A stretch of DNA of 44,723 bases. It comes from a virus. The stretch lies in the IMG/VR virus record IMGVR_UViG_3300020463_002554, positions 1-44,723 of that record; one strand, given 5' to 3'. A program made the translations under genes and the position numbers. Positions 29,419 to 44,723 of this stretch are shown in pieces. How positions within the stretch are numbered: position 1 is the first letter of the stretch; every line of letters begins with the position of its first letter. The notes beneath the pieces were generated by a model. It worked only from the letters and a program-made list of their open reading frames with translations, made no database searches and was not told the DNA's origin.

Positions 29419-29707
29419 TATAGTTGATGTTTTTGAAGCAGTCTCTCCTCCTGAAATACGTTTGTATTATAATCTAGATGGTTCAATTTTAAAAACTGCA
29501 TATGTTGCTAAAGAAGTTGCAGAACAAGAACCATATATTGTAATTACACAAGAACAATATGATGGTTTAAATAAAAAACTAAATTTTGTAATTGACGATG
29601 AACTAGTTTACGTAGAGAAAAAATTAAAACTCTGGTATTTAACACAAGCAGAATTAGAAAGGAATCCATACGTATGCAAACAGCAGCTGACATTCAAAGA
29701 GGAATAG
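29402..29707 (+). CDS. Small conserved-looking protein of unknown function
   Basis: I prefer the ATG at 29402 (101 residues) to the TTG at 29393, which lies only 4 nt after an AGGAG (29384-29388); the ATG is 13 nt after it, a loose but usable gap. The protein is acidic with a beta-rich first half (IRLYYNLDGSILKTAYVAKE near 20) and a YIVITQEQYDGLNKKLNFVIDD segment, as in small phage proteins that bind or accompany tail fibres. No motif gives a function. It overlaps the preceding gene by 17 nt and the following one by 34 nt. Confidence 0.6.
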   Translation: MSSFFDIVDVFEAVSPPEIRLYYNLDGSILKTAYVAKEVAEQEPYIVITQEQYDGLNKKLNFVIDDELVYVEKKLKLWYLTQAELERNPYVCKQQLTFKEE

Positions 29708-30438
29708 ATAGCTTTGAAGTACTACGACCTTTCGGTCCTTGTATTGTTAAAGCTAAAATTCCTGAACAAGTATCGCAAGACTTAATACAAGTATTTGAAA
29801 AAAATGGTGATGCAAAAGACCATAGCATGGAGTTAGCTGGCAATATGGTTCGTGAATTTACTATTGATGATAAAATACTAAACCCTGAACAAGCACAAAG
29901 ATTTGTACAAATGTTAGCAGATGGTAGTGCAGAAGTATATAAGGCAGGTAAAAAAGTACGTTGGGAAAATACGAGACGTTATGTTACAAAAAGACACGTA
30001 GATCTTGTAGATAATAGGATGGACAATATGCAATTAAGTTGTGCTATACACAGTAGTTGGGGTAATATAAGTGTAGCCGGTGATTTTAATCCGTCTCATA
30101 GTCATGCTGGTATGATAAGTGGTGTAGGATATTTACGTTTACCTGATAATATAGAACAAGAATGGGAAAATGAAGATCATGATCCTAGTGTCGGAATGAT
30201 TAATTTTATTAATGGTAGTACTTTGCCTTTGGATTCAAACAGTACTAGATTTAGACCTGCAATAGGAGATATATATTTCTTTCCTGCATGGCTTACACAT
30301 GAAGTTTATCCATTTCGTAGCGAGGGTGAAAGATGGAGTTTTAGTTTTAACACCACTATTGAAAATCTACACGATGATACAGATCTTACAAATGCAGATA
30401 AAAAAATAATTAAAGAAGGTTATAATGACAAAAGTTGA
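29674..30438 (+). CDS. 2OG-Fe(II) oxygenase-like protein
   Basis: This 254-residue protein carries the pattern of putative phage 2OG-Fe(II) oxygenases (PF13759-like): H142-S143-H144 within NPSHSHAGMISGVGYLRLP, then GDIYFFPAWLTHEVYPF with H209, then R220 in GERWSFSFN. In that family these are the iron ligands and the 2-oxoglutarate-binding arginine. The substrate is unknown; neighbours are glycosyltransferases and radical SAM enzymes, so hydroxylation of a sugar, protein or base is possible. The start ATG at 29674 lies inside the previous gene (34-nt overlap), which suggests coupled translation. A 14-nt overlap joins it to the next gene. Confidence 0.8.
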   Translation: MQTAADIQRGIDSFEVLRPFGPCIVKAKIPEQVSQDLIQVFEKNGDAKDHSMELAGNMVREFTIDDKILNPEQAQRFVQMLADGSAEVYKAGKKVRWENTRRYVTKRHVDLVDNRMDNMQLSCAIHSSWGNISVAGDFNPSHSHAGMISGVGYLRLPDNIEQEWENEDHDPSVGMINFINGSTLPLDSNSTRFRPAIGDIYFFPAWLTHEVYPFRSEGERWSFSFNTTIENLHDDTDLTNADKKIIKEGYNDKS

Positions 30439-31336
30439 TGTTGCTGACTTAGATTGTATCTATCTAAGTTATGACGAGCCTATGAAAGAAGAGTTTTGGG
30501 TTAAAATTCAAAATATGGTTCCGTGGGCTAAAAGAGTAGATGGAGTCGAAGGAAGCGATGCGGCCCATAAAGCAGCGGCAAAGGCAAGTGATACAGAACG
30601 TTTTGTGTTATTAGATGGCGATAATATGCCTTATCCTGAATTTTTTGATATAACTTTAGATATAAAAGATGAATATGAAGATTGCGTTTTCCGTTGGAAA
30701 GCAATAAATGCAATAAACGGATTGATGTACGGAAACGGAGGTATTAGTTGCTGGACACGTAATTTTGTAAACAAAATGAAAACACATGAAAACAGTGATG
30801 GTGCAGACGAAAATGAAGTAGAATTTTGTTATGATCCAAAATATCTTGCAATGAACAATGTATATAGTACTACACATCCTAATGGTGATGCATTTCACTC
30901 CTGGAGAGCAGGATTTAGAGAAGGTGTTAAAATGTGTCTTAATAGAGGCACAAAACCTACATTAGTAGAATTTAACGAAATGGTGCATAAGAGTAATTTC
31001 GACAGACTAAGCGTATGGCATAACATAGGAGCAGATGCAAAATTTGGCGATAGTTGTATTGCAGGTGCTAGATATGGTACTTATAGAACAATGCTTACTG
31101 AATGGGACTATACAGAAGTACAGGACTTTTATCATTTAGGAGAGATATATTCTGAATGGAAAGGTGTTGACCAGTTAAATATTAACAACTTACTACAAAC
31201 ACGTCTAGGATTACATATAAGTGAGTTTACAAGTGAACAAAGTAAGTTTTTCAAAAAAAATTATCTGCAGACACATCGACAAACTGATCCAATGAGATTA
31301 GAAATTGATTCTATACGTAGTGCAGAAGGCTGGTAA
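30425..31336 (+). CDS. Glycosyltransferase-like protein (GT-A type, DGDN motif)
   Basis: This 303-residue protein starts DLDCIYLSYDEPMKEEFWVKI, then AAHKAAAKASDTERFVLLDGDNMPYP with D64-G65-D66-N67 at the DXD position. These match a family of glycosyltransferase-like proteins frequent in marine T4-like phages. A later segment, FHSWRAGFREGVKMCLNRG (about 158-176), is also typical. It presumably transfers a sugar, with the acceptor unknown. An AAGAAGG (30413-30419) lies 5 nt before ATG 30425, inside the preceding gene. Its stop TAA overlaps the following ATG by one base. The partial gene at 44145 may be related. Confidence 0.6.
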   Translation: MTKVDVADLDCIYLSYDEPMKEEFWVKIQNMVPWAKRVDGVEGSDAAHKAAAKASDTERFVLLDGDNMPYPEFFDITLDIKDEYEDCVFRWKAINAINGLMYGNGGISCWTRNFVNKMKTHENSDGADENEVEFCYDPKYLAMNNVYSTTHPNGDAFHSWRAGFREGVKMCLNRGTKPTLVEFNEMVHKSNFDRLSVWHNIGADAKFGDSCIAGARYGTYRTMLTEWDYTEVQDFYHLGEIYSEWKGVDQLNINNLLQTRLGLHISEFTSEQSKFFKKNYLQTHRQTDPMRLEIDSIRSAEGW

Positions 31337-32694
31337 TGAGTGATTACTTTAATGATGCACTTGTTGCCAAAGAAAAGTTATCCTCAATAAGTGATAGTTT
31401 TTGTCTAGCAAAATGGAAACAAGTAAGTTTACATCTCACAACAGGACATACTAATAGTTGTTATCATCCACCATTACACAAAATTCCTATTGCACCACTT
31501 TGGGATAATCCTAGTGCTTTACATAATACTGAACATAAAAAACAAAGTCGTAGAGAGATGATCAAAGGTGTAAAGTGTAGTGACTGTAACTATTGTTGGA
31601 ATATAGAAGCTCAGGGTAATATCAGTGATAGACATTATCGTAGTGGTGAACCATGGGCAATGGATGCTTTTAATGATATTGTAAATAATCCTGAAGCAAA
31701 CGTCAACCCTAGTTATGTAGAAGTAAACTTCAATAATGTCTGTAACTTAGCATGTAGTTACTGTTCACCTCAGTTTAGTAGTACTTGGACAAAAGAAACA
31801 AAACAATTAGGAGCATGGCCAACCACTACACCTCATAATGCACCTGAGCACTTTGTAGACGAACGCAGAGCGATACCTAATAGGGAAGAAAATCCCTATA
31901 GAGAAGCATTTTGGCGTTGGTGGCCAGACTTATATAAAGATTTAAGACACTTTCGTATGACAGGCGGAGAGCCTACAATGGATCCAAACACCTATCGTGT
32001 GTTTGATTATGTACTTGAGAACCCTAAAACAGATCTTCATCTTAACACGACAAGTAATTTTAGTGTAGAAGAAAAGATATGGCAAAAGTACAAGTCATAT
32101 GTTCAGCGACTATGTCAAGGTCAACAGATAGAGCATTTTATGCAATTTGTCAGTCTCGATACTTGGGGTTCTCAAGCAGAATATATTAGACATGGACTAG
32201 ATTTTGACCTTGCGATAAATAGATGTGAAGAGTTTGTTAGAGATGTTCCGTACAGAAGTAGTCTAACATTCATCATAACAATGAATAATCTAAGTATTCT
32301 TTCAATAAAAAAACTTTTAGAGTACATTGTGTACTTACGAAAAACATATACAGATACATATCAACGTATATGGTTCGATACGCCTCTTCTGTATACGCCA
32401 GAATGGCAAAGTTTACAAATATTACCTCAGGAGTATAGTGTTATAATGGATGAGGTTATTAAATATATGGAGGAAAACTTAGATGAAATGCATGGATTTA
32501 AGGACTACGAAGTGCTTAAAATGAAAAGAGATAGAGACTGGATGTTGTTAGGTACTGATAATGTAGAACGTAAAAGAGGTGACTTTTACAAATTTTTTAC
32601 AGAGCATGATAAACGTCGTAATACAAATTTTTTAAAAACTTTTCCTGAAATGGAAAATTTTTGGACACAATGTATGTATTGGAGTAATAAGTGA
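31336..32694 (+). CDS. Radical SAM protein with N-terminal twitch-type cysteines, copy 1
   Basis: This 452-residue protein has a canonical CX3CX2C: C136-N-L-A-C140-S-Y-C143, which binds the 4Fe-4S cluster that cleaves S-adenosylmethionine. T209-G-G-E-P213 is the usual SAM-binding motif. Before the core lies a Cys-rich region (SCYHPP near 41, CSDCNYCWNIE near 79), as in SPASM/twitch domain proteins, here at the N-terminus; it may hold a second cluster. The end (RRNTNFLKTFPEMENFW) is shared with the other copies. Substrate unknown. It closely resembles the protein at 35568, so the two form one subfamily. The frame overlaps the previous stop as TAATG. Confidence 0.9.
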   Translation: MSDYFNDALVAKEKLSSISDSFCLAKWKQVSLHLTTGHTNSCYHPPLHKIPIAPLWDNPSALHNTEHKKQSRREMIKGVKCSDCNYCWNIEAQGNISDRHYRSGEPWAMDAFNDIVNNPEANVNPSYVEVNFNNVCNLACSYCSPQFSSTWTKETKQLGAWPTTTPHNAPEHFVDERRAIPNREENPYREAFWRWWPDLYKDLRHFRMTGGEPTMDPNTYRVFDYVLENPKTDLHLNTTSNFSVEEKIWQKYKSYVQRLCQGQQIEHFMQFVSLDTWGSQAEYIRHGLDFDLAINRCEEFVRDVPYRSSLTFIITMNNLSILSIKKLLEYIVYLRKTYTDTYQRIWFDTPLLYTPEWQSLQILPQEYSVIMDEVIKYMEENLDEMHGFKDYEVLKMKRDRDWMLLGTDNVERKRGDFYKFFTEHDKRRNTNFLKTFPEMENFWTQCMYWSNK

Positions 32695-34190
32695 TCGACT
32701 TATTATTACTAAATGTACCTCGTATTAGTCTGGTATATCCACCAGCTGGCACTAGTTTACTTAAAGGAGTGGTAGAACAGCAAGGATTTACCTGTACTGT
32801 AAAAGATTCTAACTTTGAATTATTGGATAGCATAAAAAATGATGATGATTTTGAAGAAATAACAAATTATTTTACAATTCCTAATGCGGAAGTTACAACA
32901 CATTGTCAAAAAATTATAGATAAATGGTATACTGATCTAGTAAATTATATTTTAAAATTAAATCCCAGACATGTTGGCATTAGTGTTTTTACTTTTGAAT
33001 GTCAAGTGGCAACTAGGGAATTGTGTAAACTATTACGTGCAGTATATAAAGGCAAGATTATAATTGGAGGTGCTGGATTAAGCACAACAGGCATAGCAAC
33101 ACAAGTTAACGATTTTGGAAACAATTTGTTATCAAGCAAACAGGTTGATTATTATGTACGCGGTGAAGGTGAACATGCATTAATAGATATATTAAAAGAA
33201 AATACAGGAAGTGGTATTAACAACGACAACTATGTACAAATTGAAGATCTAAATAGCCTTGCTTATCCTAATTACGATGACGTAATTAAATACGACTATC
33301 ATTATAGTATAGAAAATATACAATTACCAATTACTACAAGTAGAGGATGTGTAAGAAGGTGTAGTTTTTGTGATATACATGCATTTTGGAAAAAGTATAC
33401 ATATAGGTCTGGAGAAAATATAGCTGGTGAGATGATTAGTCATTACGAAAAGTATGGAGTACGTGATTTTTTCTTTACAGATAGTCTAATAAACGGAAAT
33501 TTAAAAAGTTTCCGACAACTATGTGATTGGTTAGTAAACTATTATGAAGCTAATAATCTTCCTGACAAATTTTTTAGTTGGGGAGGTCAATGGATTGTAC
33601 GTACAGAAAAACATTTGAGTCCAGCTGACTATAAAAAAGCCGCAAGGAGTGGAATGAATGGGTTAGCAATGGGTGTAGAAAGCCTAAGTGAACAAATTAG
33701 AAAAGATATGAATAAAGGTTTTAAAAATGTTGATATCGATTATACACTAGAGCAGTTTAGATTGCACGGTATCAATTGTTATTTTCTAATGATAGTCGGG
33801 TATCCTACTGAAAAAGAAGAACATCATTTAGAAACAATGCAAATGTTTACAAAATATCAAGGTTATGCAATTGACGGAACAATATTTGGTGTAAACTTAG
33901 GAGGCACTTTAAGCATAGACGAAGGAAGTCCTTTACATAAAGGCAGTATACACTTTGGATTAGAGCCAACAACAGAAAATGAAGAATTATTTGGTTTAGA
34001 TTGGACAAGCAAAGAAAATCCAAAACTTACTTTACTAGAAAGAATAAATCGACGAATAGACCTACAAGAATTACTTATGGATTTAGGTTATACTGTATGG
34101 AATGGTGATCATCAATTAAAAAGACTTAAAGCAAGTTATGAGCGTATTAAACAAAATACCTATCACTTTAAAGATATACTACACTCATAG
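32691..34190 (+). CDS. B12-binding-type radical SAM protein
   Basis: This 499-residue protein has an N-terminal Rossmann-like region resembling cobalamin-binding domains (LLLLNVPRISLVYPPAGTSLL, then VGISVFTFECQVATRELCKLL and IIIGGAGLSTTG near 120). The radical SAM core follows, with C220-V-R-R-C224-S-F-C227 and FFFTDSLINGN near 260. Enzymes of this layout include methyltransferases, ring-rearranging enzymes and hopanoid/bacteriochlorophyll modifiers, so reaction type cannot be assigned. The B12-binding DXHXXG motif is not evident, so cobalamin use is uncertain. It starts with GTG overlapping the preceding stop (GTGA). The next gene begins 53 nt before its end. Confidence 0.8.
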   Translation: MIDLLLLNVPRISLVYPPAGTSLLKGVVEQQGFTCTVKDSNFELLDSIKNDDDFEEITNYFTIPNAEVTTHCQKIIDKWYTDLVNYILKLNPRHVGISVFTFECQVATRELCKLLRAVYKGKIIIGGAGLSTTGIATQVNDFGNNLLSSKQVDYYVRGEGEHALIDILKENTGSGINNDNYVQIEDLNSLAYPNYDDVIKYDYHYSIENIQLPITTSRGCVRRCSFCDIHAFWKKYTYRSGENIAGEMISHYEKYGVRDFFFTDSLINGNLKSFRQLCDWLVNYYEANNLPDKFFSWGGQWIVRTEKHLSPADYKKAARSGMNGLAMGVESLSEQIRKDMNKGFKNVDIDYTLEQFRLHGINCYFLMIVGYPTEKEEHHLETMQMFTKYQGYAIDGTIFGVNLGGTLSIDEGSPLHKGSIHFGLEPTTENEELFGLDWTSKENPKLTLLERINRRIDLQELLMDLGYTVWNGDHQLKRLKASYERIKQNTYHFKDILHS

Positions 34191-34647
34191 TGGACACACA
34201 AATGGCTGGCCCTTGTGTAGAATATTATGGGATAATAAACAAGTAGCAAACTTTAAAGCGGATGGACAAGAAATAGAGTTTACAGTACTCCCTAAACCTG
34301 AAGGTATCAGTACACTTATAGTAGAACATTATGGGAAAAATGTATATACTGAACATGATAAATTTATAGAAGTAATTGCAATGAGAGTAAATAACATACC
34401 ATTAAAAAATATACTATGGGAATCAACACAATATCCAATAACTGCACCCTGGGACGAGCCGTGGCAAGAAGACGGAAATTTATATCTCGGACATAATGGT
34501 CATATTGTTTGGAAATTTAATAATCCTATGTTGTTAGATATACAAAAAAGATTAGGAGTACGGAGACGTACTCAAGAAGGACAGGAAAGTACAAAACAAG
34601 TGTTAAATGAAATAAAAGAATATTTTAAAAATGAAAAAGATAGATAA
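34138..34647 (+). CDS. Small beta-rich protein of unknown function, 53-nt overlap with upstream gene
   Basis: This 169-residue protein starts MSVLNKIPITLKIYYTHSGH, and no other ATG, GTG or TTG occurs in frame before the domain begins, so the ATG inside the radical SAM gene is the only normal start. The first 90 residues look like a beta-sandwich with strands ITLKIYYTH, CRILWDNKQVANF and IEFTVLP, which could be a sugar-binding domain. Then LWESTQYPITAPWDEPWQED follows with several Trp, and a charged helix (RLGVRRRTQEGQESTKQV) ends it. Function unknown. It overlaps the next gene by 17 nt. The 53-nt overlap in two frames is long for this operon. Confidence 0.65.
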   Translation: MSVLNKIPITLKIYYTHSGHTNGWPLCRILWDNKQVANFKADGQEIEFTVLPKPEGISTLIVEHYGKNVYTEHDKFIEVIAMRVNNIPLKNILWESTQYPITAPWDEPWQEDGNLYLGHNGHIVWKFNNPMLLDIQKRLGVRRRTQEGQESTKQVLNEIKEYFKNEKDR

Positions 34648-35269
34648 TTTTTTTAGTAAAGAAGATTGTGAATGGTTTTTATGGTACAATACTATTTTAC
34701 CTAATACAAGAGACAACGGGCTACGTTTAATGAGTATGACACATTTTGCACAACCATTCTTTGCACGTAAACTTGCTGACTTGCACAGTCGTTTACCAGA
34801 AAATGAAGAGATTACAACACTTAATATCAACTTTGATTATGGTGCAGGTGGCATACATAGTGATGGATATATAGAATATGATAAAGATGACAAAATTGCA
34901 AACAGTTATTTAATTCCAATTATAGTCAACGAAGTGGACAAGTATTATACGCTTGTATTTGACCAAATAAGTAAGGAAGCAGTAACCTTTAATGGAGAAA
35001 CAGGGCTAGGAAATAAAGGTATTACAACTTACAAGCAAATTACTAGTGAAGATTTTGGACTAAGTAATGAACCGTTCGATAAAGAAGTTTACAATAAACA
35101 CCTTTCTCATTTAAATTATGATGCCTTAAAAGGATTGACAGTAGCACATATTCATGAATGGATGTTAGGTAGTGCAATGACTTGGCCTAGACAGAATTTT
35201 CATGTAAGTGCAAATTTTGAAAATAAAAATACTAGAGCAAGTGTGCTCATTACGACGAGATATAAATGA
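34631..35269 (+). CDS. 2OG-Fe(II) oxygenase-like protein, HSD type
   Basis: This 212-residue protein carries the facial triad of Fe(II)/2OG oxygenases: H76-S77-D78 in GGIHSDGYIEYD, a distal H191 in QNFHVSANF, and R202 eleven residues later, where 2-oxoglutarate is bound. Strands around ANSYLIPIIVN and YYTLVFDQ fit the jelly-roll core. Sequence around the triad differs from the other oxygenase at 29674 (HSH), so they are not recent copies and may act at different steps or on different substrates. It overlaps the upstream gene by 17 nt and the downstream one as ATGA. Confidence 0.75.
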   Translation: MKKIDNFFSKEDCEWFLWYNTILPNTRDNGLRLMSMTHFAQPFFARKLADLHSRLPENEEITTLNINFDYGAGGIHSDGYIEYDKDDKIANSYLIPIIVNEVDKYYTLVFDQISKEAVTFNGETGLGNKGITTYKQITSEDFGLSNEPFDKEVYNKHLSHLNYDALKGLTVAHIHEWMLGSAMTWPRQNFHVSANFENKNTRASVLITTRYK

Positions 35270-35571
35270 TCGAATTTGACATAACAAATAATGGTAGTAT
35301 GATTTATGAAGTTGAGGTAGAAGACTATGGAGCAAAAATACGTTTTTATGGAAAAAACTACAAGACAAATACAGAAGATTATGTGAAAATAAACAATATA
35401 TACTATAAAGACTTAATACTTCCAGAACTATTTGAGTACAGTACAATGTCAACAGACAATGAAGATTATGCTGAATTAACAAATGTAAATTATGTTACTT
35501 TTAATGGAATATGGGAATTAAATTTTACTGAAGATGATCTTAAACAAATATTAAGGTATAAGTTAACATGA
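35266..35571 (+). CDS. Small protein of unknown function
   Basis: This 101-residue protein is acidic and Tyr-rich. The sequence MIEFDITNNGSMIYEVEVED suggests beta strands, then YGAKIRFYGKNYKTN and a LPELFEYSTMSTDNEDYAEL segment, with WELNFTEDDLKQILRYKLT as a terminal strand and helix. It has no cysteines and no known motif. Both ends overlap neighbours in ATGA units, so it is almost certainly translated with them. Its place between an oxygenase and a radical SAM gene hints at a partner or substrate role, but nothing in the sequence proves this. Confidence 0.65.
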   Translation: MIEFDITNNGSMIYEVEVEDYGAKIRFYGKNYKTNTEDYVKINNIYYKDLILPELFEYSTMSTDNEDYAELTNVNYVTFNGIWELNFTEDDLKQILRYKLT

Positions 35572-36962
35572 GTGAAGGTAATCCTGCAAATAATTTAGAA
35601 GTCCTGCAAAATACTTTACCTCCTTTGGAGTTTAAAAAACTTCATTTAGATAAACGTAGTAGTAGTTTTTGTGGTGCGAAATGGTATAATGCTACTGTAT
35701 GGTTAGGTAGTGGAATGACTACAAGTTGTCATCATCCGTTGCCTCATAAAATAGATCCTATTGCTGTGCAAACAAATCCAAAACTACTGCACAATACGCC
35801 CGAGAAGAAAGAACAACGGCGCCAAATGCAGTGCGGAGAACGACCAGAAGGCTGCAACTACTGTTGGAAAATTGAAGACATGGGTCCGGAACATGTTAGT
35901 GATAGAGTTTATAAAAGTTGGATATATACAGATGAGGAACTTACTGATGCATTTACAAGAGACTATAATGAAGATTTTGAACTTAGAAGCCTTGAGATCG
36001 CCTTTGACAGGACATGCAATTTTGCTTGTAGTTATTGCAATCCTGCGTTTTCAAGCACTTGGGTAAAAGATCTTAAAAAAGACGGACCATATAAAAACTT
36101 ACAAAGTGATGGAAGAGGACACTTTACACATCCACACGATTCTAATCAATTGTATGGATATCAAGAATTTAATCCTTATGTGGAAGCGTTTTTTAAATGG
36201 TGGGATAGTGACTTACATAAAACACTTAGGCAATTAAGAGTGACTGGCGGGGAGCCGTTAATGAGCCCAGATCTTTGGAAACTTATAGAATGGTTTGAAA
36301 ATAATGGAGATAAAAGTACCACAAGTCTAGCAATAAACAGTAATTTGGTTGCAAAGCCTGCACTGATACAACGTCTAATAAATGTTAAACGACATCTGCC
36401 TAGTTTAGCCGTTTATACAAGTGCAGAAGCAATAGGTGGGGCGGCAGAATACATACGTGATGGAATGAACTTTACACAATGGTGGGATAATATATGTCGT
36501 TTACACGAAGCAGATATCGATACACATTGCATGTGTACAATAAATGCACTATGTTTAGAAACATTGCCAGACTTAGTAGAACGTATTATAAAGAAACGCA
36601 AAGAGTATGGTATGCGTTTTGCAGTAATGAGTTTTAATATATTACGTTTTCCTAGTTTTCAAAGTGCATTAGTTTTACCAGATAATATTAAACTAAGACA
36701 CGTAGATAGATTAAAGCAATTACGTAAAACTTATGCACCTAAATTGTTAAATAGAACAGATTGCTTTCATGAATTTGAATTAGGACAATTAGATAGATTA
36801 ATAGAATATATACAAGTAGTAGACAAACCTCACAGCGAAGGATTTGATATGCCTAGATTACATAATGATTTTAGAAAGTTTTATCAGCAATATGATATAA
36901 GACGGAATAAAAATTTTCCTAAAACTTTTCCAGAACTAGAGGAATGGTATGAAACACTATGA
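35568..36962 (+). CDS. Radical SAM protein with N-terminal twitch-type cysteines, copy 2
   Basis: This 464-residue protein is the sister of the one at 31336. It shares the N-terminal Cys region (SCHHPLPHKI near 46, then GCNYCWKIED near 101), a core motif C150-N-F-A-C154-S-Y-C157 followed by FSSTW, T226-G-G-E-P230, and the end RRNKNFPKTFPELEEWY. Between the core cysteines and TGGEP both have a tryptophan-rich stretch (NPYVEAFFKWWDSD here). It should bind at least one 4Fe-4S cluster and SAM. Substrate unknown. The two sisters are separated by four genes, so an ancient duplication with insertion, or separate acquisition, is possible. ATGA overlaps occur at both ends. Confidence 0.9.
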   Translation: MSEGNPANNLEVLQNTLPPLEFKKLHLDKRSSSFCGAKWYNATVWLGSGMTTSCHHPLPHKIDPIAVQTNPKLLHNTPEKKEQRRQMQCGERPEGCNYCWKIEDMGPEHVSDRVYKSWIYTDEELTDAFTRDYNEDFELRSLEIAFDRTCNFACSYCNPAFSSTWVKDLKKDGPYKNLQSDGRGHFTHPHDSNQLYGYQEFNPYVEAFFKWWDSDLHKTLRQLRVTGGEPLMSPDLWKLIEWFENNGDKSTTSLAINSNLVAKPALIQRLINVKRHLPSLAVYTSAEAIGGAAEYIRDGMNFTQWWDNICRLHEADIDTHCMCTINALCLETLPDLVERIIKKRKEYGMRFAVMSFNILRFPSFQSALVLPDNIKLRHVDRLKQLRKTYAPKLLNRTDCFHEFELGQLDRLIEYIQVVDKPHSEGFDMPRLHNDFRKFYQQYDIRRNKNFPKTFPELEEWYETL

Positions 36963-38275
36963 CAGATGACTTAGACAATTACTATAAAAATTATGATTAC
37001 CATACACGTAAACCTGTTTATGTTAAGATTGAAGATTTAAATGAAACACAACGTAGTAGACTTTTGACTAGTAAAAGTTTTTGTATACTTCCATGGGTAC
37101 ACCTACATGCATTTCCAACAGGTGAAGCATATCCTTGTTGTTTAGCACGTATGGATCAACCTCTTGGTTCGCTACGTGAAAGTTCAATGAAAGAAATATG
37201 GAACAGTACTGATCTTAAAAAAATTAGAGAAAATATGATGCAAGACAAATCTTGTAATCAGTGTACTAAATGTTATGAGCAAGAAGAAAATGGTTTTGTA
37301 AGTATGCGTTATAGTGCTAACAAAAATCATGGCCATCATATTACAAGAGTCGACGAAACTGAACAGGATGGGTATTACAAAGATTTCAAATTAACTTATT
37401 ATGATATCCGTTTTAGTAACTTATGTAATTTAAGTTGTAGATCATGTGGTGATATTTTTAGCAGTAACTGGGTAAAGGAAGCAAAGAAATATGGTTGGTT
37501 AAAACCAAGTCATCCTAATGTAAGTTATGCTGGCAAATACGAAATGGATATGTGGGAGCAACTGCAACCTCATTTGGATAGTATTGAAAATGTTTATTTC
37601 GCCGGCGGTGAACCACTAATGATGAAGGAACATTATAATTTATTAAATGCACTTATTGAAAGAGGTAGAACAGATGTACGTCTAAACTACAATACAAATT
37701 TTACTAAATTAATATTTAAAAAACAAGATGTATTAGAATTATGGAATAAGTTTGATGTAGTAAGTATTGGTGCAAGTTTAGATGCAAGTTACGACAGAGG
37801 CGAACTAATGCGTAAAGGTACAGATTGGAATAAAGTTGTAGAAAATCGGAAACGTATGTTAGAGATTTGTCCAACTGTAGATTTTTATATTAGTGCAACT
37901 CTTAGTGTAATGAATGTTTATCATATATTGGATTTACATAAAGAATGGACTGAACTTGGACTGATTAAAGCACAAGATTTTAATGTTAATATACTTCAAG
38001 ATCCTGAACGTTTTAGAATGGATATACTACCAACAGATATGAAACAAGAAATTAACAACTTATATAATGAACATATAGAATGGTTACAACCACAGGATAA
38101 TCTTACTCGTGCAACAAATGGATTTAAAAGTGCAATTACTTTTATGAATGCAAAAGATAATAGTGCATTAATCGATGATTTTGTAAAACGTACAGACGAA
38201 ATGGATCGCTTTAGGAACGAAGGATTCTTTTCAGTATTTCCAGAATTAGAAAGACTTCGAAAGTATGTCAAGTAA
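36959..38275 (+). CDS. Radical SAM protein with N-terminal twitch-type cysteines, copy 3
   Basis: This 438-residue protein belongs to a second subfamily, with the two that follow. The N-terminal region has CILPWVHLHAFPTGEAYPCC near 42-61 and CNQCTKCYEQEENG near 100-113. The core motif is C156-N-L-S-C160-R-S-C163 followed by GDIFSSNW. A215-G-G-E-P219 stands in for TGGEP. The end is FRNEGFFSVFPELERL. This pattern is that of twitch/SPASM radical SAM enzymes with peptide-modifying or sugar-modifying relatives, but no specific substrate can be named. It overlaps the previous gene by ATGA and the next one by 11 nt. Confidence 0.9.
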   Translation: MTDDLDNYYKNYDYHTRKPVYVKIEDLNETQRSRLLTSKSFCILPWVHLHAFPTGEAYPCCLARMDQPLGSLRESSMKEIWNSTDLKKIRENMMQDKSCNQCTKCYEQEENGFVSMRYSANKNHGHHITRVDETEQDGYYKDFKLTYYDIRFSNLCNLSCRSCGDIFSSNWVKEAKKYGWLKPSHPNVSYAGKYEMDMWEQLQPHLDSIENVYFAGGEPLMMKEHYNLLNALIERGRTDVRLNYNTNFTKLIFKKQDVLELWNKFDVVSIGASLDASYDRGELMRKGTDWNKVVENRKRMLEICPTVDFYISATLSVMNVYHILDLHKEWTELGLIKAQDFNVNILQDPERFRMDILPTDMKQEINNLYNEHIEWLQPQDNLTRATNGFKSAITFMNAKDNSALIDDFVKRTDEMDRFRNEGFFSVFPELERLRKYVK

Positions 38276-39458
38276 ATGTATTCTTCCATGGATTAGTATA
38301 GAAACAACACCTTCAGGCACAACAAGGCCTTGTTGTTTATATACAGATGAAATCCCAAATGTAAAGTTAGCTACTTCAACATTACAAGATGCTTTTAATA
38401 GTAAATTTATGCGTAATTTAAGACGTGCTTTTAGGCGTGGCGAAAAACCTGAGGGTTGTAGAAACTGTTGGCGTGAAGAAGACGCAGGTAAAAAGTCAAA
38501 ACGACAATATATGCTTGAAAAGTTTAGTGATATTAATGTACAATACAAAGATAATAATGGTGAAGATTTAGTATTTTTAGATCTTAAACTAGGTAATATT
38601 TGTAATCTAAAATGTCGTATTTGTGGAAGCTGGAGTAGTAGCAGATGGGCACAAGAAGAATTAGACTATGTAGAAGATTCTACAAATCATATTGCAAAAA
38701 AATGGTTAAAGGATGGACAGTGGCCCAGAAAGAGTCCACGTTTTTGGGATAATATGGATGAATTGTTGCCTCAAATAAAATATTTTGAATTTACTGGTGG
38801 CGAACCGTGGATGATAAAACAACATTTTGAATTATTACAAAATGCCGTAAATAAAGATTATGCCAAAAATATAGATATACACTACAATACGAATACAACA
38901 CAGTTTCCTAAAGATCCGACTATATGGAAACATTTCAAAAATGTACAAATTGCTTTCAGTGTTGATAATACAGGAGAACGTTTTGAGTATGAACGTTATG
39001 GAGCAAAATGGAAAACGTCTAATGCAAATATTAAAAAGGTACACGCCCTAAGAGAAAAAGGTTATCCTATTATTACACAACTATGTTGTACATGGAATAT
39101 ACAAAATATTTTTTATTTAGATGAAATACTTACGTGGGCAAAAACAATGACTTTCGATAGCATACATTTCAATGTAATGCACGATCCATGGGAATTTAGT
39201 TTAAGCAAAACACCTATTCATGCACGTAGTCCTATTATGTTGTATTTACAAAAGCAACAAATTTTGCATAGACAATATAAAAATGATATTATGGCATTGA
39301 AAACGTTAGTAGAAAAAGCGAACATGAACGAAACACCTGAAGAACCAGAGACCGGTCAATCACTTCATAAAAAATTAAGACAAACTGATTTGTATCGTAA
39401 TCAAAACTTTGCACTTAGTCATACAAAAATAGCACAAGCAATAAAATATGAACTCTAA
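38265..39458 (+). CDS. Radical SAM protein with N-terminal twitch-type cysteines, copy 4
   Basis: This 397-residue protein begins almost immediately with CILPWISIETTPSGTTRPCC (from residue 5), then GCRNCWREEDAG near 65. The core motif is C113-N-L-K-C117-R-I-C120 followed by GSWSSSRW, and T177-G-G-E-P181. The end RNQNFALSHTKIA is a weaker version of the tail shared by the family. It is the shortest copy because it lacks an N-terminal lead. Start ATG 38265 overlaps the previous gene by 11 nt, the same overlap as with the next gene. It is most like copies 3 and 5. Substrate unknown. Confidence 0.9.
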   Translation: MSSKCILPWISIETTPSGTTRPCCLYTDEIPNVKLATSTLQDAFNSKFMRNLRRAFRRGEKPEGCRNCWREEDAGKKSKRQYMLEKFSDINVQYKDNNGEDLVFLDLKLGNICNLKCRICGSWSSSRWAQEELDYVEDSTNHIAKKWLKDGQWPRKSPRFWDNMDELLPQIKYFEFTGGEPWMIKQHFELLQNAVNKDYAKNIDIHYNTNTTQFPKDPTIWKHFKNVQIAFSVDNTGERFEYERYGAKWKTSNANIKKVHALREKGYPIITQLCCTWNIQNIFYLDEILTWAKTMTFDSIHFNVMHDPWEFSLSKTPIHARSPIMLYLQKQQILHRQYKNDIMALKTLVEKANMNETPEEPETGQSLHKKLRQTDLYRNQNFALSHTKIAQAIKYEL

Positions 39459-40725
39459 GCCAGAAAATTTATGTATGGCTCCTTGGACCCATACTTATCT
39501 GAGTCCGCAAACAGAACGCAGATTATGTTGTGCTAGTAGAGAACCTGCACAAAATTTTAAACAATACATTGATACAACGGAAGGTACTAATGAATATAAA
39601 CCGTCTACACTAGAAGAATATTGGAACGGTGAAAATATTAGACGTATTCGTATGCAAATGTTAAACAATGTAGTACCACCTGAATGTGTAGTGTGTGATA
39701 AAAAATTATTAAATCAAGATGTATATAGAGATTACTTTAATCATCTATTTGCACATAGATGGAATGACGTCGTTGAAAATACACAAGATGATGGATATAC
39801 GACTATGAAACCAATTAGTTGGGACTATCGTTTTAGTAATTTATGTAACTTTAAATGTAGAATGTGTGGGCCTATGTTAAGTAGTGCTTGGGAAACAGAA
39901 GCACGTAAACAGGATAAAATAGAACCTTGGATGGAAAAGTCAGTAAAGACTAAAATTGAAACATTTCAAAAGGACACCGTTGAAAAGGAGTTTAACACTG
40001 CAGTTGAAGAACATAGAATTGAAGAAGTCTATTGGGTTGGCGGTGAACCACTTATGTACGAGCAACATTGGCGTTATATGCAACGTATTATTGAATTAGG
40101 TGATGGGTCAGGACTATATGCAAGATATAATACAAATTTACATAGAGTAAATTACAAAGGTGTAAATTTGTATCAAGACATTTTAGACCATATACGTGAT
40201 TGGCAAATATGTGCAAGTTTAGATGGGACTAGAGAAGTAGGTGAATACATAAGAACAGGATTAGTATATGATACGTGGAAGAAAAATTTTGAACAAGGGT
40301 TAGCACATGCAAGAAATAAACGCATGATGCGTATTGATTTTACATTAACCTTACCTGGATTATTTGACATTGTAAATATATGTAGGTTAGCTAGAGAATA
40401 TGATGTAGATATTTTAGCAAAAGTAGTATTTGCATTTACGCCAGATATTGCAATGAGTCCTTTATTTTTACCTAGAGGTATTTTGCACTACATAGTCAAT
40501 AGTTTACTATTGACAAGTGAAGTAGATAATAGTACAATAAGAAATATGCTTAAAAGTTTATTGGATAGACCAACATTTGAAGAAGAATTTCCTAATGAAT
40601 ATAAAAAAGCAAGAATAAAAGGCAAATGGCGTATTCAGGCAATGGATAATTTACGAGGTGGAATGAAGTTTGTAGATACTCTTAAAGATTACAAAGCAAA
40701 AGAATTTTGGAATGGAATTTGTTAA
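39448..40725 (+). CDS. Radical SAM protein with N-terminal twitch-type cysteines, copy 5
   Basis: This 425-residue protein has CMAPWTHTYLSPQTERRLCC near residues 8-27, then PPECVVCDKKL near 76, then a core motif C133-N-F-K-C137-R-M-C140 followed by GPMLSSAW. The SAM-binding motif reads V197-G-G-E-P201, with Val in place of Thr. The C-terminus lacks the NF--FPE tail of copies 1-3 and has a Lys/Arg-rich helix (NEYKKARIKGKWRIQAMDN). These changes suggest it has diverged in substrate. It is followed by the P-loop kinase-like gene with no gap. Confidence 0.88.
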   Translation: MNSKPENLCMAPWTHTYLSPQTERRLCCASREPAQNFKQYIDTTEGTNEYKPSTLEEYWNGENIRRIRMQMLNNVVPPECVVCDKKLLNQDVYRDYFNHLFAHRWNDVVENTQDDGYTTMKPISWDYRFSNLCNFKCRMCGPMLSSAWETEARKQDKIEPWMEKSVKTKIETFQKDTVEKEFNTAVEEHRIEEVYWVGGEPLMYEQHWRYMQRIIELGDGSGLYARYNTNLHRVNYKGVNLYQDILDHIRDWQICASLDGTREVGEYIRTGLVYDTWKKNFEQGLAHARNKRMMRIDFTLTLPGLFDIVNICRLAREYDVDILAKVVFAFTPDIAMSPLFLPRGILHYIVNSLLLTSEVDNSTIRNMLKSLLDRPTFEEEFPNEYKKARIKGKWRIQAMDNLRGGMKFVDTLKDYKAKEFWNGIC

Positions 40726-42216: not shown

Positions 42217-42227
42217 TGATAGTTGTT

Positions 42228-42233
42228 AAGGAG
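42228..42233 (+). promoter_or_regulatory. Shine-Dalgarno sequence of the small GTG-start gene
   Basis: AAGGAG sits 7 nt before GTG at 42241. It is one of the best ribosome binding sites in this operon and is the main reason to annotate the small gene. Confidence 0.65.
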
Positions 42234-42240
42234 TTGATAC

Positions 42241-42345
42241 GTGATAAGTTGGATTAAAAATATTATTAATAAAATTAAAATGGAAATAAGGTATCGTAAA
42301 CGTTTAAAAGAACTAAGAAAACGAGACCCGTTTATATACAAATGA
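42241..42345 (+). CDS. Small basic protein, 34 residues, GTG start
   Basis: The frame reads (M)ISWIKNIINKIKMEIRYR, then KRLKELRKRDPFIYK. It is highly basic, with an amphipathic N-terminal helix (ISWIKNIINKIKM) and a helical KELRKR stretch, then a distinct DPFIYK end. Evidence that it is real: a strong AAGGAG 7 nt upstream, the exact ATGA overlap with the following carbamoyltransferase gene (its stop TGA at 42343-42345), and its fill of an otherwise unusual 126-nt gap. No function is known to me. It may bind membrane or nucleic acid, or may chiefly couple translation of the carbamoyltransferase. Confidence 0.7.
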   Translation: MISWIKNIINKIKMEIRYRKRLKELRKRDPFIYK

Positions 42346-43829
42346 TACTAGGACTCAGTGCAGGCTTTCACGATGCTGGAGCCACTTTGATTGATAAAAC
42401 AAATGGCGAGATACTATTTGCAGGTCATGCGGAACGGTATAGTGGTGTAAAAAATGATGCTAATCTAAATCAAGAACTTATAGATGATGCCCTAAGTTAC
42501 GGTGAGCCAAATAATGTTGCATGGTATGAAAAAACATGGCTTAAAAGAACTAGACAACTGTACAGTGGCGAATGGCGTAAAGCAATAAATTTTAGCACTA
42601 GTCCTAAAAAACTAATAAAACCTTTTATGGGCAAAATACCTATACATAGTTATGGACATCATAAATGTCATGCAGCCGCAGGTTTCCAAACTAGCCCATA
42701 TAAAAATGCAATTGCAATAGTAGTTGATGCTATAGGAGAATGGGACACAATCAGTGTATGGGAATGCAGTTATAAACCTGTATACTTAGGTCGCCCTAAA
42801 GCAACTTACAAAAAAATATGGAATCAAATTTATCCACACAGTATAGGATTATACTACAGTGCAATTACAAAGTACATAGGGCTTAAACCTATGGAAGATG
42901 AGTATATAACAATGGGTATGGCAGCATATGGTAAAGCATATTTACAATCATATGAAAAAAATAGAATGCTTGTTGACCTAGATAAAATAGAGTTTGTAGA
43001 TAATTTCCATGCAGGTATAGAAGAGGATTATTTTGTTGGTAGTGGACTAGATAGATTTGATGTTGCCGCTGGCGCACAAAAAGTAGTTGAACAATTATTA
43101 AGAGGATTATTTGAACGTTTTGTTACAAGACAAACAAACGTCGTATTCATGGGCGGTGTAGCACTTAATTGTGTAGCAAATGCTATGCTAGAAGCACATT
43201 GTAAAGATTTATGGATCATGCCAAACCCAGGAGACTGTGGTAGTAGTCTAGGAGCGGCGGCACTACAATACGGAAAAAAATTACGTTGGAAAGGTCCATA
43301 CTTAGGACATAATATACCAGGAGAGTATCCGATTGATGCTATTATAGGCGGCTTAATGTCTGATAAGATTGTGGGCGTAGCAAGTGGTAGAGCAGAATTT
43401 GGACCTAGAGCATTAGGTACTAGAAGTCTACTTGCAGATCCACGTGGACAGGATATTAAGGATAAAGTAAATAATATTAAGAAAAGACAAAAATTTAGAC
43501 CTTTTGCTCCTATGATTCTTGAAGAACATTTTAAAGATGAATTTATAGTATACAAAAAACAAAAAGAACCATATATGCAAAGTGTTTATAAGTGTTTAAA
43601 TCCTGAATTATATCCAGCAATAGTACACCAAGATGGAACAAGTAGGGTACAAACTGTAGGTAAGAATGATCATCCAGATGTGAGACGACTATTAGAAAAA
43701 TGGTATTTCATGACAGGTTGTCCTATGTTGTTAAACACAAGTTTAAATATAAAAAGTGAGCCTATGGTTAACAATAGAGCAGACGCAGATAAATTTGAAA
43801 AAAGATATAATGTTAAGGTATGCAGTTAA
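42342..43829 (+). CDS. Carbamoyltransferase, NodU/TobZ type
   Basis: This 495-residue protein is a NodU/CmcH/TobZ-type O-carbamoyltransferase. It starts ILGLSAGFHDAGATLI, a Kae1/ASKHA fold motif. H106-H107-K108-C109-H110 (GHHKCHAAAG) is the metal-binding region, PMEDEYITMGMAAYG lies near 185, MGGVALNC near 270, and the second domain has SGRAEFGPRALGTRSLLADPR near 350 and NTSLNIKSEPM near 470. These enzymes make carbamoyl adenylate from carbamoyl phosphate and ATP and transfer the carbamoyl group to a hydroxyl, usually on a sugar. It is somewhat shorter than the usual 550-600 residues. The ATGA overlap and the small upstream gene suggest coupled translation. With the glycosyltransferases this points to a carbamoylated sugar. 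Confidence 0.92.
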   Translation: MILGLSAGFHDAGATLIDKTNGEILFAGHAERYSGVKNDANLNQELIDDALSYGEPNNVAWYEKTWLKRTRQLYSGEWRKAINFSTSPKKLIKPFMGKIPIHSYGHHKCHAAAGFQTSPYKNAIAIVVDAIGEWDTISVWECSYKPVYLGRPKATYKKIWNQIYPHSIGLYYSAITKYIGLKPMEDEYITMGMAAYGKAYLQSYEKNRMLVDLDKIEFVDNFHAGIEEDYFVGSGLDRFDVAAGAQKVVEQLLRGLFERFVTRQTNVVFMGGVALNCVANAMLEAHCKDLWIMPNPGDCGSSLGAAALQYGKKLRWKGPYLGHNIPGEYPIDAIIGGLMSDKIVGVASGRAEFGPRALGTRSLLADPRGQDIKDKVNNIKKRQKFRPFAPMILEEHFKDEFIVYKKQKEPYMQSVYKCLNPELYPAIVHQDGTSRVQTVGKNDHPDVRRLLEKWYFMTGCPMLLNTSLNIKSEPMVNNRADADKFEKRYNVKVCS

Positions 43830-44144
43830 ATGATAGATGAAAACGAATTAAGACAACGAGTAATTCAAGCATTGCGTAATGTATATGACCCAGAAATGCC
43901 TAGTGTAAGTGTTTACGATTTAGGTCTTATATATAAATTAGAAATTACCAAAGATCATTGTTTTATTGAACACACATTAACCAGTATGGCATGTCCATTT
44001 GCAGATGAGATTTGTGCAGATATAGAAAATGCTGTTACTACTACACCAGGTGTGAAGTCATGTGACAGACAGTTAGTTTTTGAACCTATGTTTACAATGG
44101 AAATGGTACCTGAAGATACAAAACTAGCAATGGGCTGGTATTAA
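43830..44144 (+). CDS. SufT/MIP18-like Fe-S cluster assembly protein (DUF59)
   Basis: This 104-residue protein matches the MIP18/SufT/PaaD family: ALRNVYDPEMPSVSVYDLGLIY (about 13-34) contains the conserved D-P-E/D and D-L-G-L-I/V-Y motifs, and TSMACPFADEI near 49-59 contains the single conserved Cys. Family members help deliver or insert 4Fe-4S clusters into target proteins. The six radical SAM proteins in the same operon are natural clients, though this is inferred. Start ATG directly follows the stop of the carbamoyltransferase gene. The length is normal for the family. Confidence 0.9.
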   Translation: MIDENELRQRVIQALRNVYDPEMPSVSVYDLGLIYKLEITKDHCFIEHTLTSMACPFADEICADIENAVTTTPGVKSCDRQLVFEPMFTMEMVPEDTKLAMGWY

Positions 44145-44723
44145 TTGTTTGATATATTTTGTATGCAAATGGGAGGTAAAACTAAATTACCATTTCATAC
44201 ACAATTTACAAGATATAATAATACGCATCTAGCAACAATAAAACGCATAGTAGAGAAAGCCAAAACAGAATACGTTTGGGTAGTAAGTGATCTTTGTGAT
44301 TATAGCAATTTTGATTTTACTTGGCAACCTATGCCCTGGGAAGCAGATCAAATTCATTGTTGGGCAAGTGGCAATCAGCAGTTTGGTGATACTTTTTTAA
44401 TACCTGTAAGTGCTTTTAAGCGTCAAGTAGATAACCTTAAAGTCTTAGGCTGGTACAAACATATAAACTGGCATAGCGATGGTGTACAAAGGACTACATT
44501 AGGTAATATGTATGATTGGATTTATTATAGTGATGCACGTTTTGAATTTAATCCTAGTCTTTGGGAAAAACGCATTCTACACAGTTTTGGAAAAAATGGA
44601 AGTGTACTACTAGTACCTAGAGACTGTAAACAGTATTTTCTTACACAATATTATGACTACCCATACATATTGCGTCATACCGACTGGAATGTTAATGAAA
44701 AGACACAAGATATAGTGTTCATA
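44145..44723 (+). CDS. Glycosyltransferase-like protein, 3' end cut by window edge
   Basis: The frame is open from TTG 44145, directly after the SufT stop, to the end of the window (193 codons). Translation gives (M)FDIFCMQMGG, then YVWVVSDLCDYSNFDFTWQ (about 45-63), then WASGNQQFGDTFLIP near 80 and NWHSDGVQRT near 110. These patterns are those of glycosyltransferase-like proteins found in many marine T4-like phages, often as multidomain chains. SDLCDYSNFD may be the DXD-like site. An ATG at 44163 is an alternative start but would remove the FDIF strand. The acceptor is unknown. Confidence 0.6.
   Translation, partial: MFDIFCMQMGGKTKLPFHTQFTRYNNTHLATIKRIVEKAKTEYVWVVSDLCDYSNFDFTWQPMPWEADQIHCWASGNQQFGDTFLIPVSAFKRQVDNLKVLGWYKHINWHSDGVQRTTLGNMYDWIYYSDARFEFNPSLWEKRILHSFGKNGSVLLVPRDCKQYFLTQYYDYPYILRHTDWNVNEKTQDIVFI

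Follow-up and report, generated by a model that had tools for sequence, protein, structure and literature searches.

A clade of NodU/TobZ-type carbamoyltransferases (CTases) present in viruses and in cells was found to be tied to a protein of the SGNH/GDSL fold which resembles the unnamed domain family DUF6071, and this link is new here. The window, an IMG/VR record of 44,723 bases from a marine phage, carries both genes. The best explanation, to which we assign a probability of about 0.55, is that they form a unit which carbamoylates a hydroxyl of a glycan sugar and not a DNA base. Families of baseplate, virion and tail-fibre proteins occupy most of the window's first 26.5 kb, upstream of the CTase, in agreement with the tail-adjacent setting described in a first-pass annotation of the sequence. 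They are followed, 5' to 3', by unmatched genes, a 2OG-Fe(II) oxygenase, radical SAM genes interspersed with others, a kinase, the SGNH-fold protein, a nucleotidyltransferase-like protein, the CTase, a SufT/PaaD-like protein and the start of a GT-A-fold protein (Table 1). The two neighbours of the CTase which resemble a kinase and a nucleotidyltransferase are putative assignments.

Table 1. Features of the window around the carbamoyltransferase gene, with the matches on which each assignment is based.
Feature	Position	Strand	Basis and remarks
2OG-Fe(II) oxygenase	29674..30438	+	PF13759 E 3.3e-20; phrog_81
Second member of GT-like family	30425..31336	+	BLAST cluster with 44145-44723; 27% identity to L002 member; no Pfam match
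Radical SAM genes, one BLAST family	31336-32694, 35568-36962, 36959-38275, 38265-39458, 39448-40725	+	PF04055/PF13186; 31336-32694 at 20.8 bits, below cut-off; 38265-39458 at 323.2 bits to NF033640 twitch radical SAM (cut-off 170); the stretch 31336..40725 contains other genes in between
B12-binding-like radical SAM	32691-34190	+	PF02310, 29.0 bits, below cut-off
P-loop kinase, APS-kinase-like, 141 aa	40726..41151	+	PF01583 E 7.3e-8; phrog_10255 E 8.5e-34
SGNH/GDSL-fold protein, 227 aa	41148..41831	+	Divergent DUF6071-like family member
Small adenylyl/cytidylyltransferase-like protein, 120 aa	41854..42216	+	phrog_10255 E 2.2e-15; phrog_395 E 2e-4; between SGNH gene and CTase; NMN-adenylyltransferase matches far under cut-off
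Intergenic stretch	42217..42341	+	Position of the 168-aa formyltransferase of G001, missing in the window
CTase	42342..43829	+	NodU/TobZ-type O-carbamoyltransferase, 495 aa, ATG start, both domains
Fe-S assembly protein, SufT/PaaD kind, 104 aa	43830..44144	+	PF01883 E 1.4e-16; TIGR02945 100.5 bits, under cut-off 143.4
Probable GT-A-fold protein start (glycosyltransferase candidate)	44145..44723	+	Cut by window end; 79% identity to full-length homologue in L002

The CTase matches the Pfam domains Carbam_trans_C (E 1.3e-49) and Carbam_trans_N (E 7.8e-33), each above the cut-off, and as a member of the NodU/CmcH family it scores 114.8 bits to PF02543 (cut-off 24) and 168.4 bits to PF16861 (cut-off 27). 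The profile phrog_1601, named 'Nol-like carbamoyltransferase', is matched with E 8.3e-89; the NodU equivalog NF041651 is matched with 119.7 bits at a cut-off of 1000. All 12 distinct PDB sequences which match are CTases by name (7xb6/8hiu, 9s2t, GdmN, TobZ). The motifs GHHKCHA (residues 105-111) and GPRALG (354-359) are intact, as the first-pass annotation had stated for a NodU/TobZ-type enzyme. In an alignment of 22 CTases, window included, H106, H107, H110, G354, P355, R356, L358 and G359 are invariant, as are D129 and D298 and the second-domain basic residues K380, R382, R386 and R435, while A357 is replaced by serine in one sequence (L028). The HHxxxH motif and aspartate presumably form the metal site, and a role in the second domain is likewise assumed for its basic residues. 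Chance is excluded as the source of the family call and of the motifs. The expected chemistry, O-carbamoylation, which had also been proposed in the first-pass annotation, has the support of family membership, of solved homologues and of the motifs. With TobZ, GdmN, NovN and NodU, enzymes which act on antibiotics or Nod factors, the window enzyme shares the two-domain architecture, HHxxxH and GPRALG, and a glycine and an arginine after GPRAL; the viral CTases of the clade that were aligned have lengths of about 434-505 amino acids, as compared to 576-702 residues in the PDB chains.

A search of 50,697 phage records at E up to 1e-5 gave relatives of the CTase in 139, none with at least 60% identity, so that its presence in a phage is not unusual in itself. 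As to the unusual viral modification suggested in the first-pass annotation, the gene is found widely among marine phages, and CTases of cyanophages were already tabulated in 2010 (PMC3037559). The marine T4-like phages of phrog_1601 belong to the same profile family; the enzymes of P-SSM2 and HTVC008M share 28-29% identity with the window CTase and fall outside its clade, which includes those of C48C1 (34%) and of marine virus AG-345-D19 (46.5%). The nearest virus among those compared, here called G001 (133,896 bases), has a CTase which is 98% identical. The main pieces of DNA shared with it are 95.3%, 93.8% and 82.6% identical over 42,254, 1,937 and 545 columns, and the pieces join at 42228/42223 of the window and 85159/85619 of G001. 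A gene for a 168-aa formyltransferase in G001 (85147-85653; PF00551 E 1.6e-37) is absent from the window, as is a 233-aa gene. Such coming and going of neighbours would be expected if the CTase were functionless cargo, be it stuffer DNA or a decaying host gene. This is very improbable, however, as the reading frame is open and full-length, the core residues are invariant across homologues of 29-98% identity, and the gene is often retained beside the same SGNH partner.

The association with the SGNH gene, like family, motifs and clade, was computed. CTases with at least 40% identity were represented by one member per cluster, which gave 23 representatives and excluded seven of 30 clusters below 40%. 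An SGNH gene lies at most three genes from the CTase in 14 of the 23 (5.4 expected) and is adjacent in 10 (2.0 expected), and none of 5000 random placements reached either count. Representatives were picked by flank length, which selected L003 and not the window for the window's own cluster; with the window as representative the SGNH family is found anywhere in the locus in 18/23, the highest figure of all families counted, radical SAM being found in 14. The counting profile was built from SGNH proteins neighbouring CTases. Three further scans, two of them covering the best 80 of 132 and the best 80 of 385 relatives, contributed 195 new viral loci; together with the 50 rows of the tree these formed 75 CTase clusters, 36 of them without an old member. 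CTase reading frames shorter than 350 aa had been dropped, as had every cluster that was joined at 75% to one of the 50 tree rows. In 20 of these 36 an SGNH gene was found, always adjacent to the CTase (19 directly downstream, one directly upstream), with 3.1 expected and a maximum of 10 in 5000 placements; in the other 16, with flanks of up to 6 kb, none was found. No other neighbour family within four genes of the CTase occurred in more than eight of the 36. All placement tests count loci as independent, with loci centred on the CTase and random placements made on the same loci; reading frames were called mechanically, which is rough for high-GC genomes.

In the window's own branch the pairing is looser. 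Among the six members of its CTase cluster an SGNH gene is located one to three genes away in the window, L002 and L006 and nine genes away in L003; none was found in the available sequence of loci L004 and L005. Virus records in general may be fragments. In G001 the profile matched two of 133 reading frames, one of them beside the CTase. SGNH neighbours are also not confined to the clade, since among 18 more CTase loci (C48C1 within the clade, L058 and L059 unplaced, the others outside) the profile matched two, in Azospirillum (L065) and in phage Mosig (L072), and since it weakly matched Tateyamaria L134. Nothing was matched in the loci of P-SSM2 and HTVC008M.

The SGNH protein of the window matches its own profile HMM with E 3.8e-39, the protein itself being among the profile seeds. 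G8, S10, N39, R70 and H200 (window numbering) are invariant in 22 aligned members, and the GxS block, the asparagine, the histidine of the last block and the fold together place it in the SGNH/GDSL superfamily. A sequence WSxxxR presumably occupies the place where SGNH enzymes usually carry GxND. The structural model is of moderate confidence (pLDDT 67); by fold it comes closest to GDSL lipases, thioesterase I and carbohydrate esterases (best Z 13.2, rmsd 3.2, 165 residues aligned), with weak Foldseek E-values of 1.4e-3 at best. The Pfam model of DUF6071 (PF19547) did not match the window protein at E up to 1, nor the SGNH proteins of L009 and L329; those of the kin loci L008, L029, L045 and L128-L131 match it above the cut-off.

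The same pairing is seen in cells. In 595 actinobacterial genomes DUF6071 was present in all five with a CTase of the clade, in none of 97 with only other CTases and in one of 493 with neither. The respective counts were 3/3, 0/83 and 1/211 for 297 Streptomycetaceae and 2/2, 0/14 and 0/282 for 298 Mycobacteriales. At most five candidates per genome were scored, E thresholds of 1e-50 and 1e-60 defined the 'other CTases', and the clade was delimited by a cut of our own (E 2e-107 or better versus 5.6e-76 and weaker; E 1.2e-141 or better versus 2.8e-68). Two of the five clade genomes (G042, G043) were seeds; when these are excluded, DUF6071 is present in 3/3 clade genomes with four DUF6071 genomes among 593, which has a chance probability of 1.2e-7. 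All five pairs share a contig, with gaps of about 0.1, 0.9, 0.9, 3.4 and 11.5 kb. PF19547 was found in only eight of 14 genomes or records with CTase loci, and in none of 14 control genomes. In the literature searched, which has most subscription papers outside its scope, there was no mention of DUF6071 and, among the papers listed, no description of a CTase-SGNH pair in phages. With DUF6071 linked to this CTase clade in viruses and cells, the question of the substrate becomes testable with two genes rather than with a whole cluster.

Catalysis, acceptor, role of the SGNH protein and biological purpose are what we infer from these associations. The CTase would depend on ATP and carbamoyl phosphate for O-carbamoyl transfer. 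In TobZ we take the YrdC-like domain to make carbamoyl-adenylate and the Kae1-like domain to transfer the carbamoyl group; by analogy, carbamoyl-adenylate would be formed by the C-terminal YrdC-like domain of the window enzyme, and transfer to a hydroxyl would take place in its N-terminal domain, which is Kae1-like and metal-binding. Carbamoyl-adenylate is the intermediate according to an eLife paper. As the other half of the two-gene unit, the SGNH protein may act on the same acceptor, either deacylating it to expose the hydroxyl or correcting a misplaced carbamate by removal or relocation. The acceptor would be a hydroxyl on a sugar of a glycan that the infecting phage synthesizes or alters, for example on the host surface.

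A glycan is ranked first because of the gene context in the sister virus: past the point where the window ends, G001 encodes an SDR epimerase, a DegT aminotransferase and a PIG-L deacetylase. The first-pass annotation had placed the CTase beside sugar enzymes, which holds in part: none of the scanned neighbours in the window matches a sugar-enzyme family, but the next gene but one is the GT-A-fold candidate and the three genes of G001 lie just beyond. The candidate is assigned through its fold only. A model of the L002 homologue (pLDDT 88) matches GT-A folds (best Z 11.7, rmsd 3.0, 140 residues aligned); lower-ranked matches include nucleotidylyltransferases, the GT-A fold being common to both kinds of enzyme, the Foldseek TM of the 14 best matches is low (0.20-0.30 on the query), and the VIA matches concentrate on one domain. 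Pfam has no name for this family, for the families F11 and F4 or for the 233-aa gene of the sister virus. Sugar enzymes are found near the CTase in four of eight annotated phage loci (HTVC008M, P-SSM2, Sf-FS3, Mosig), with a UDP-glucose dehydrogenase and a glycosyltransferase in HTVC008M and adjoining heptose-type genes in P-SSM2 and Sf-FS3. These loci and the neighbours in G001 make a carbamoylated glycan plausible, although the four phage enzymes stand outside the window's clade. P-RSM4, S-CAM8 and S-SSM7 have no annotated sugar enzyme within 6 kb flanks, and C48C1 has one glycosyltransferase at a distance of 3.4 kb. SDR or DegT families recur in 6/23 representatives, and in some further viral loci there are weak GT8-like neighbours below the cut-off. 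Around the further viral pairs the genes are of several kinds (radical SAM, NT5C-like, ribonucleotide reductase, EF-hand) and are not sugar-nucleotide enzymes. In bacteria, plasmid CTases of Burkholderia and Ensifer lie amid glycosyltransferase or polysaccharide genes, that of Ensifer near a GDSL esterase. As the SGNH profile does not match this annotated esterase (L136), the Ensifer pair is a parallel and not the same family. The contexts of the superfamily are mixed overall, since among further plasmid CTases one (L135) belongs to a polyketide cluster and another (L137) has a TfuA-like gene nearby. A putative CTase, wapO, has been described for the heptose of the lipopolysaccharide core in Pseudomonas (PMC8005017).

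The first-pass annotation had proposed a carbamoylated glycan or base. Its glycan half finds some support, its base half none, and the recurring SGNH partner was not visible to it. Carbamoylation of a modified base in phage DNA has a precedent in the 5-hydroxymethylcytosine CTase, which is proven in vitro, is thought to be phage-derived, and shares superfamily and expected chemistry with the window enzyme (PMC8670742). This enzyme and those of Xp15, Effie and BF503P1, which we call its kin by sequence, form a separate group however (100/100 in a tree of 50 rows), parted from the 46 other rows by a branch of 2.56 changes per column. At GPRALGTRS and RPFAP of the window, the four base-type sequences read GPR[AS]L[CG]xT and MPxAP (MPFAP, MPMAP or MPCAP). 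R361 of the window (TobZ 423), the second residue past GPRAL-x, is shared with TobZ-type enzymes and is threonine in all four base-type sequences, including the 5-hydroxymethylcytosine CTase; G359 (TobZ 421) is cysteine in three of them and glycine in Effie; V346 (TobZ 408) differs from the tryptophan of TobZ. Taken together, the residues at these three positions set the window CTase apart from the base type, the register being derived from PDB match ranges minus a presumed 6-residue tag. No dCMP-type hydroxymethylase was found: the thymidylate synthase family PF00303 was absent from 30 of the 32 relatives' records, which may be incomplete and include all of G001, and the two that have it (L034, L035) both carry the Asn (dUMP) signature, as compared to Asp in Xp15 and Effie. 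By annotation, a putative thymidylate synthase is located near the Xp15 CTase and a dCMP hydroxymethyltransferase near that of BF503P1. A ThyX-like gene, noted by eye in G001 (94025-94690), would supply dTMP. Because of the separate group, the differing residues, the absence of a dCMP-type hydroxymethylase from the records searched and this ThyX-like gene, modification of a DNA base is unlikely and was rejected. Two phage CTase lineages which had been lumped by annotation are thereby separated, a base-modifying one and one of sugar or small-molecule type.

A free small molecule, derived from an amino acid or amino sugar and made or diverted by the phage, is a less probable acceptor than the glycan. 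The model is the gvg/PNP-1 clusters for 4-formylaminooxyvinylglycine, which combine an esterase (SGNH/GDSL in PNP-1) and a NodU-type CTase with formyl-, amino- and amidinotransferases. In Pseudomonas fluorescens WH6, activity is lost on knockout of gvgA (lipase/esterase), of gvgF (NodU-type CTase) or of gvgH (aminotransferase), and is retained on knockout of gvgI (formyltransferase) or gvgD (amidinotransferase), which also belong to the cluster (PMC8067088, Table 1). PNP-1 requires the SGNH/GDSL hydrolase, CTase, aminotransferase and formyltransferase, and carB too (PMC4010436). The pair gvgA and gvgF belongs, with gvgB and gvgC, to the core of gvg-like clusters, some of them in Streptomyces, so that esterase-CTase pairs of such bacterial clusters have already been published (PMC8064604). 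Their likeness to the window pair is one of description. G001 resembles these clusters in having SGNH, formyltransferase and CTase genes inside 3.2 kb, a DegT aminotransferase farther along, and three genes related to one another, with a match to L-arginine:glycine amidinotransferase for one of them. A small-molecule acceptor is also favoured by the actinobacterial contexts. Three loci (L057, L128, L129) have a common layout of a class I/II aminotransferase upstream, CTase, DUF6071 and 2OG-Fe(II) oxygenase, to which two of the loci add a radical SAM gene. In Streptomyces parvus (L130) CTase and DUF6071 are encoded on opposite strands with about 11.5 kb between them, within an apparent NRPS cluster as judged by eye. 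Against this stand the missing formyltransferase in the window and the 36 further viral representatives, in which, radical SAM aside, no gvg-type accompanying family recurs. A related and more doubtful reading is that of a portable two-gene carbamate module common to marine phages and actinobacterial clusters, in which the SGNH protein would work on the carbamate itself and the virus would make a gvg-like small molecule or a novel surface decoration derived from the carbamate during infection. In such a module the SGNH serine enzyme might use the carbamate as acyl donor, giving a carbonate, ester or N-linked product, or might edit it.

The radical SAM genes and the 2OG oxygenase which precede the CTase in the window, with tail genes upstream, would also fit a peptide or virion protein matured by these radical SAM/SPASM and oxygenase neighbours and then carbamoylated. 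This is unlikely, as the radical SAM family, frequent among the 23 representatives, is found in only 5/36 further viral clusters and is thus the less stable companion; it was set aside as a constant partner. The Fe-S assembly gene directly downstream was rejected as a partner as well, being present in one of the 23 representatives and in four members overall. A 2017 study described paaD and 12 radical SAM genes in a T4-like virus from the ocean (PMC5332604).

Two genes flanking the carbamoyltransferase region of the sister virus G001 were found by DNA alignment to be absent from the window: a formyltransferase gene ahead of the carbamoyltransferase (85147–85653 in G001; window 42217–42341) and a gene of 233 amino acids past the Fe-S gene (87543–88244; window 44144). 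The DNA common to both is 94–95% identical, with a lower value of 82.6% in the final 545 columns of the alignment.

The SufT/PaaD-like gene is in keeping with the numerous Fe-S enzymes encoded close by (table), and paaD in a virus appears in a 2017 publication (PMC5332604). One tested member among the five related radical SAM genes matched the twitch radical SAM model NF033640. The amidinotransferase-like genes matched each other and a gene adjoining the carbamoyltransferase of Streptomyces parvus, and one of them matched L-arginine:glycine amidinotransferase.

Coordinates of radical SAM, Fe-S and amidinotransferase-like genes
Feature	Sequence	Position	Remark
Radical SAM genes (n=5)	window	31336–40725	single family by BLAST clustering
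B12-binding-like radical SAM gene	window	32691–34190	additional to the five
SufT/PaaD-like Fe-S assembly gene	window	43830–44144	immediately downstream of carbamoyltransferase
Amidinotransferase-like genes	G001	38232–39353, 114803–115681, 131145–132209	
Amidinotransferase-like gene	locus L031	15924–16949	

Three small actinobacterial clusters (L057, L128 in G253 and L129 in G283) combine a class I/II aminotransferase, a carbamoyltransferase of the window's clade, a DUF6071 protein and a 2OG oxygenase, joined in two of the three by a radical SAM gene; this set may constitute an undescribed biosynthetic cluster.

At another carbamoyltransferase locus (L008, 17453–18833) a thymidylate synthase adjoins a gene judged DHFR-like by eye, few genes away from the carbamoyltransferase. 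The counterpart synthase in locus L035 carries the dUMP signature asparagine.

Window positions 8339–21610 form one reading frame of 4423 amino acids matching phrog_10938, a virion structural protein.
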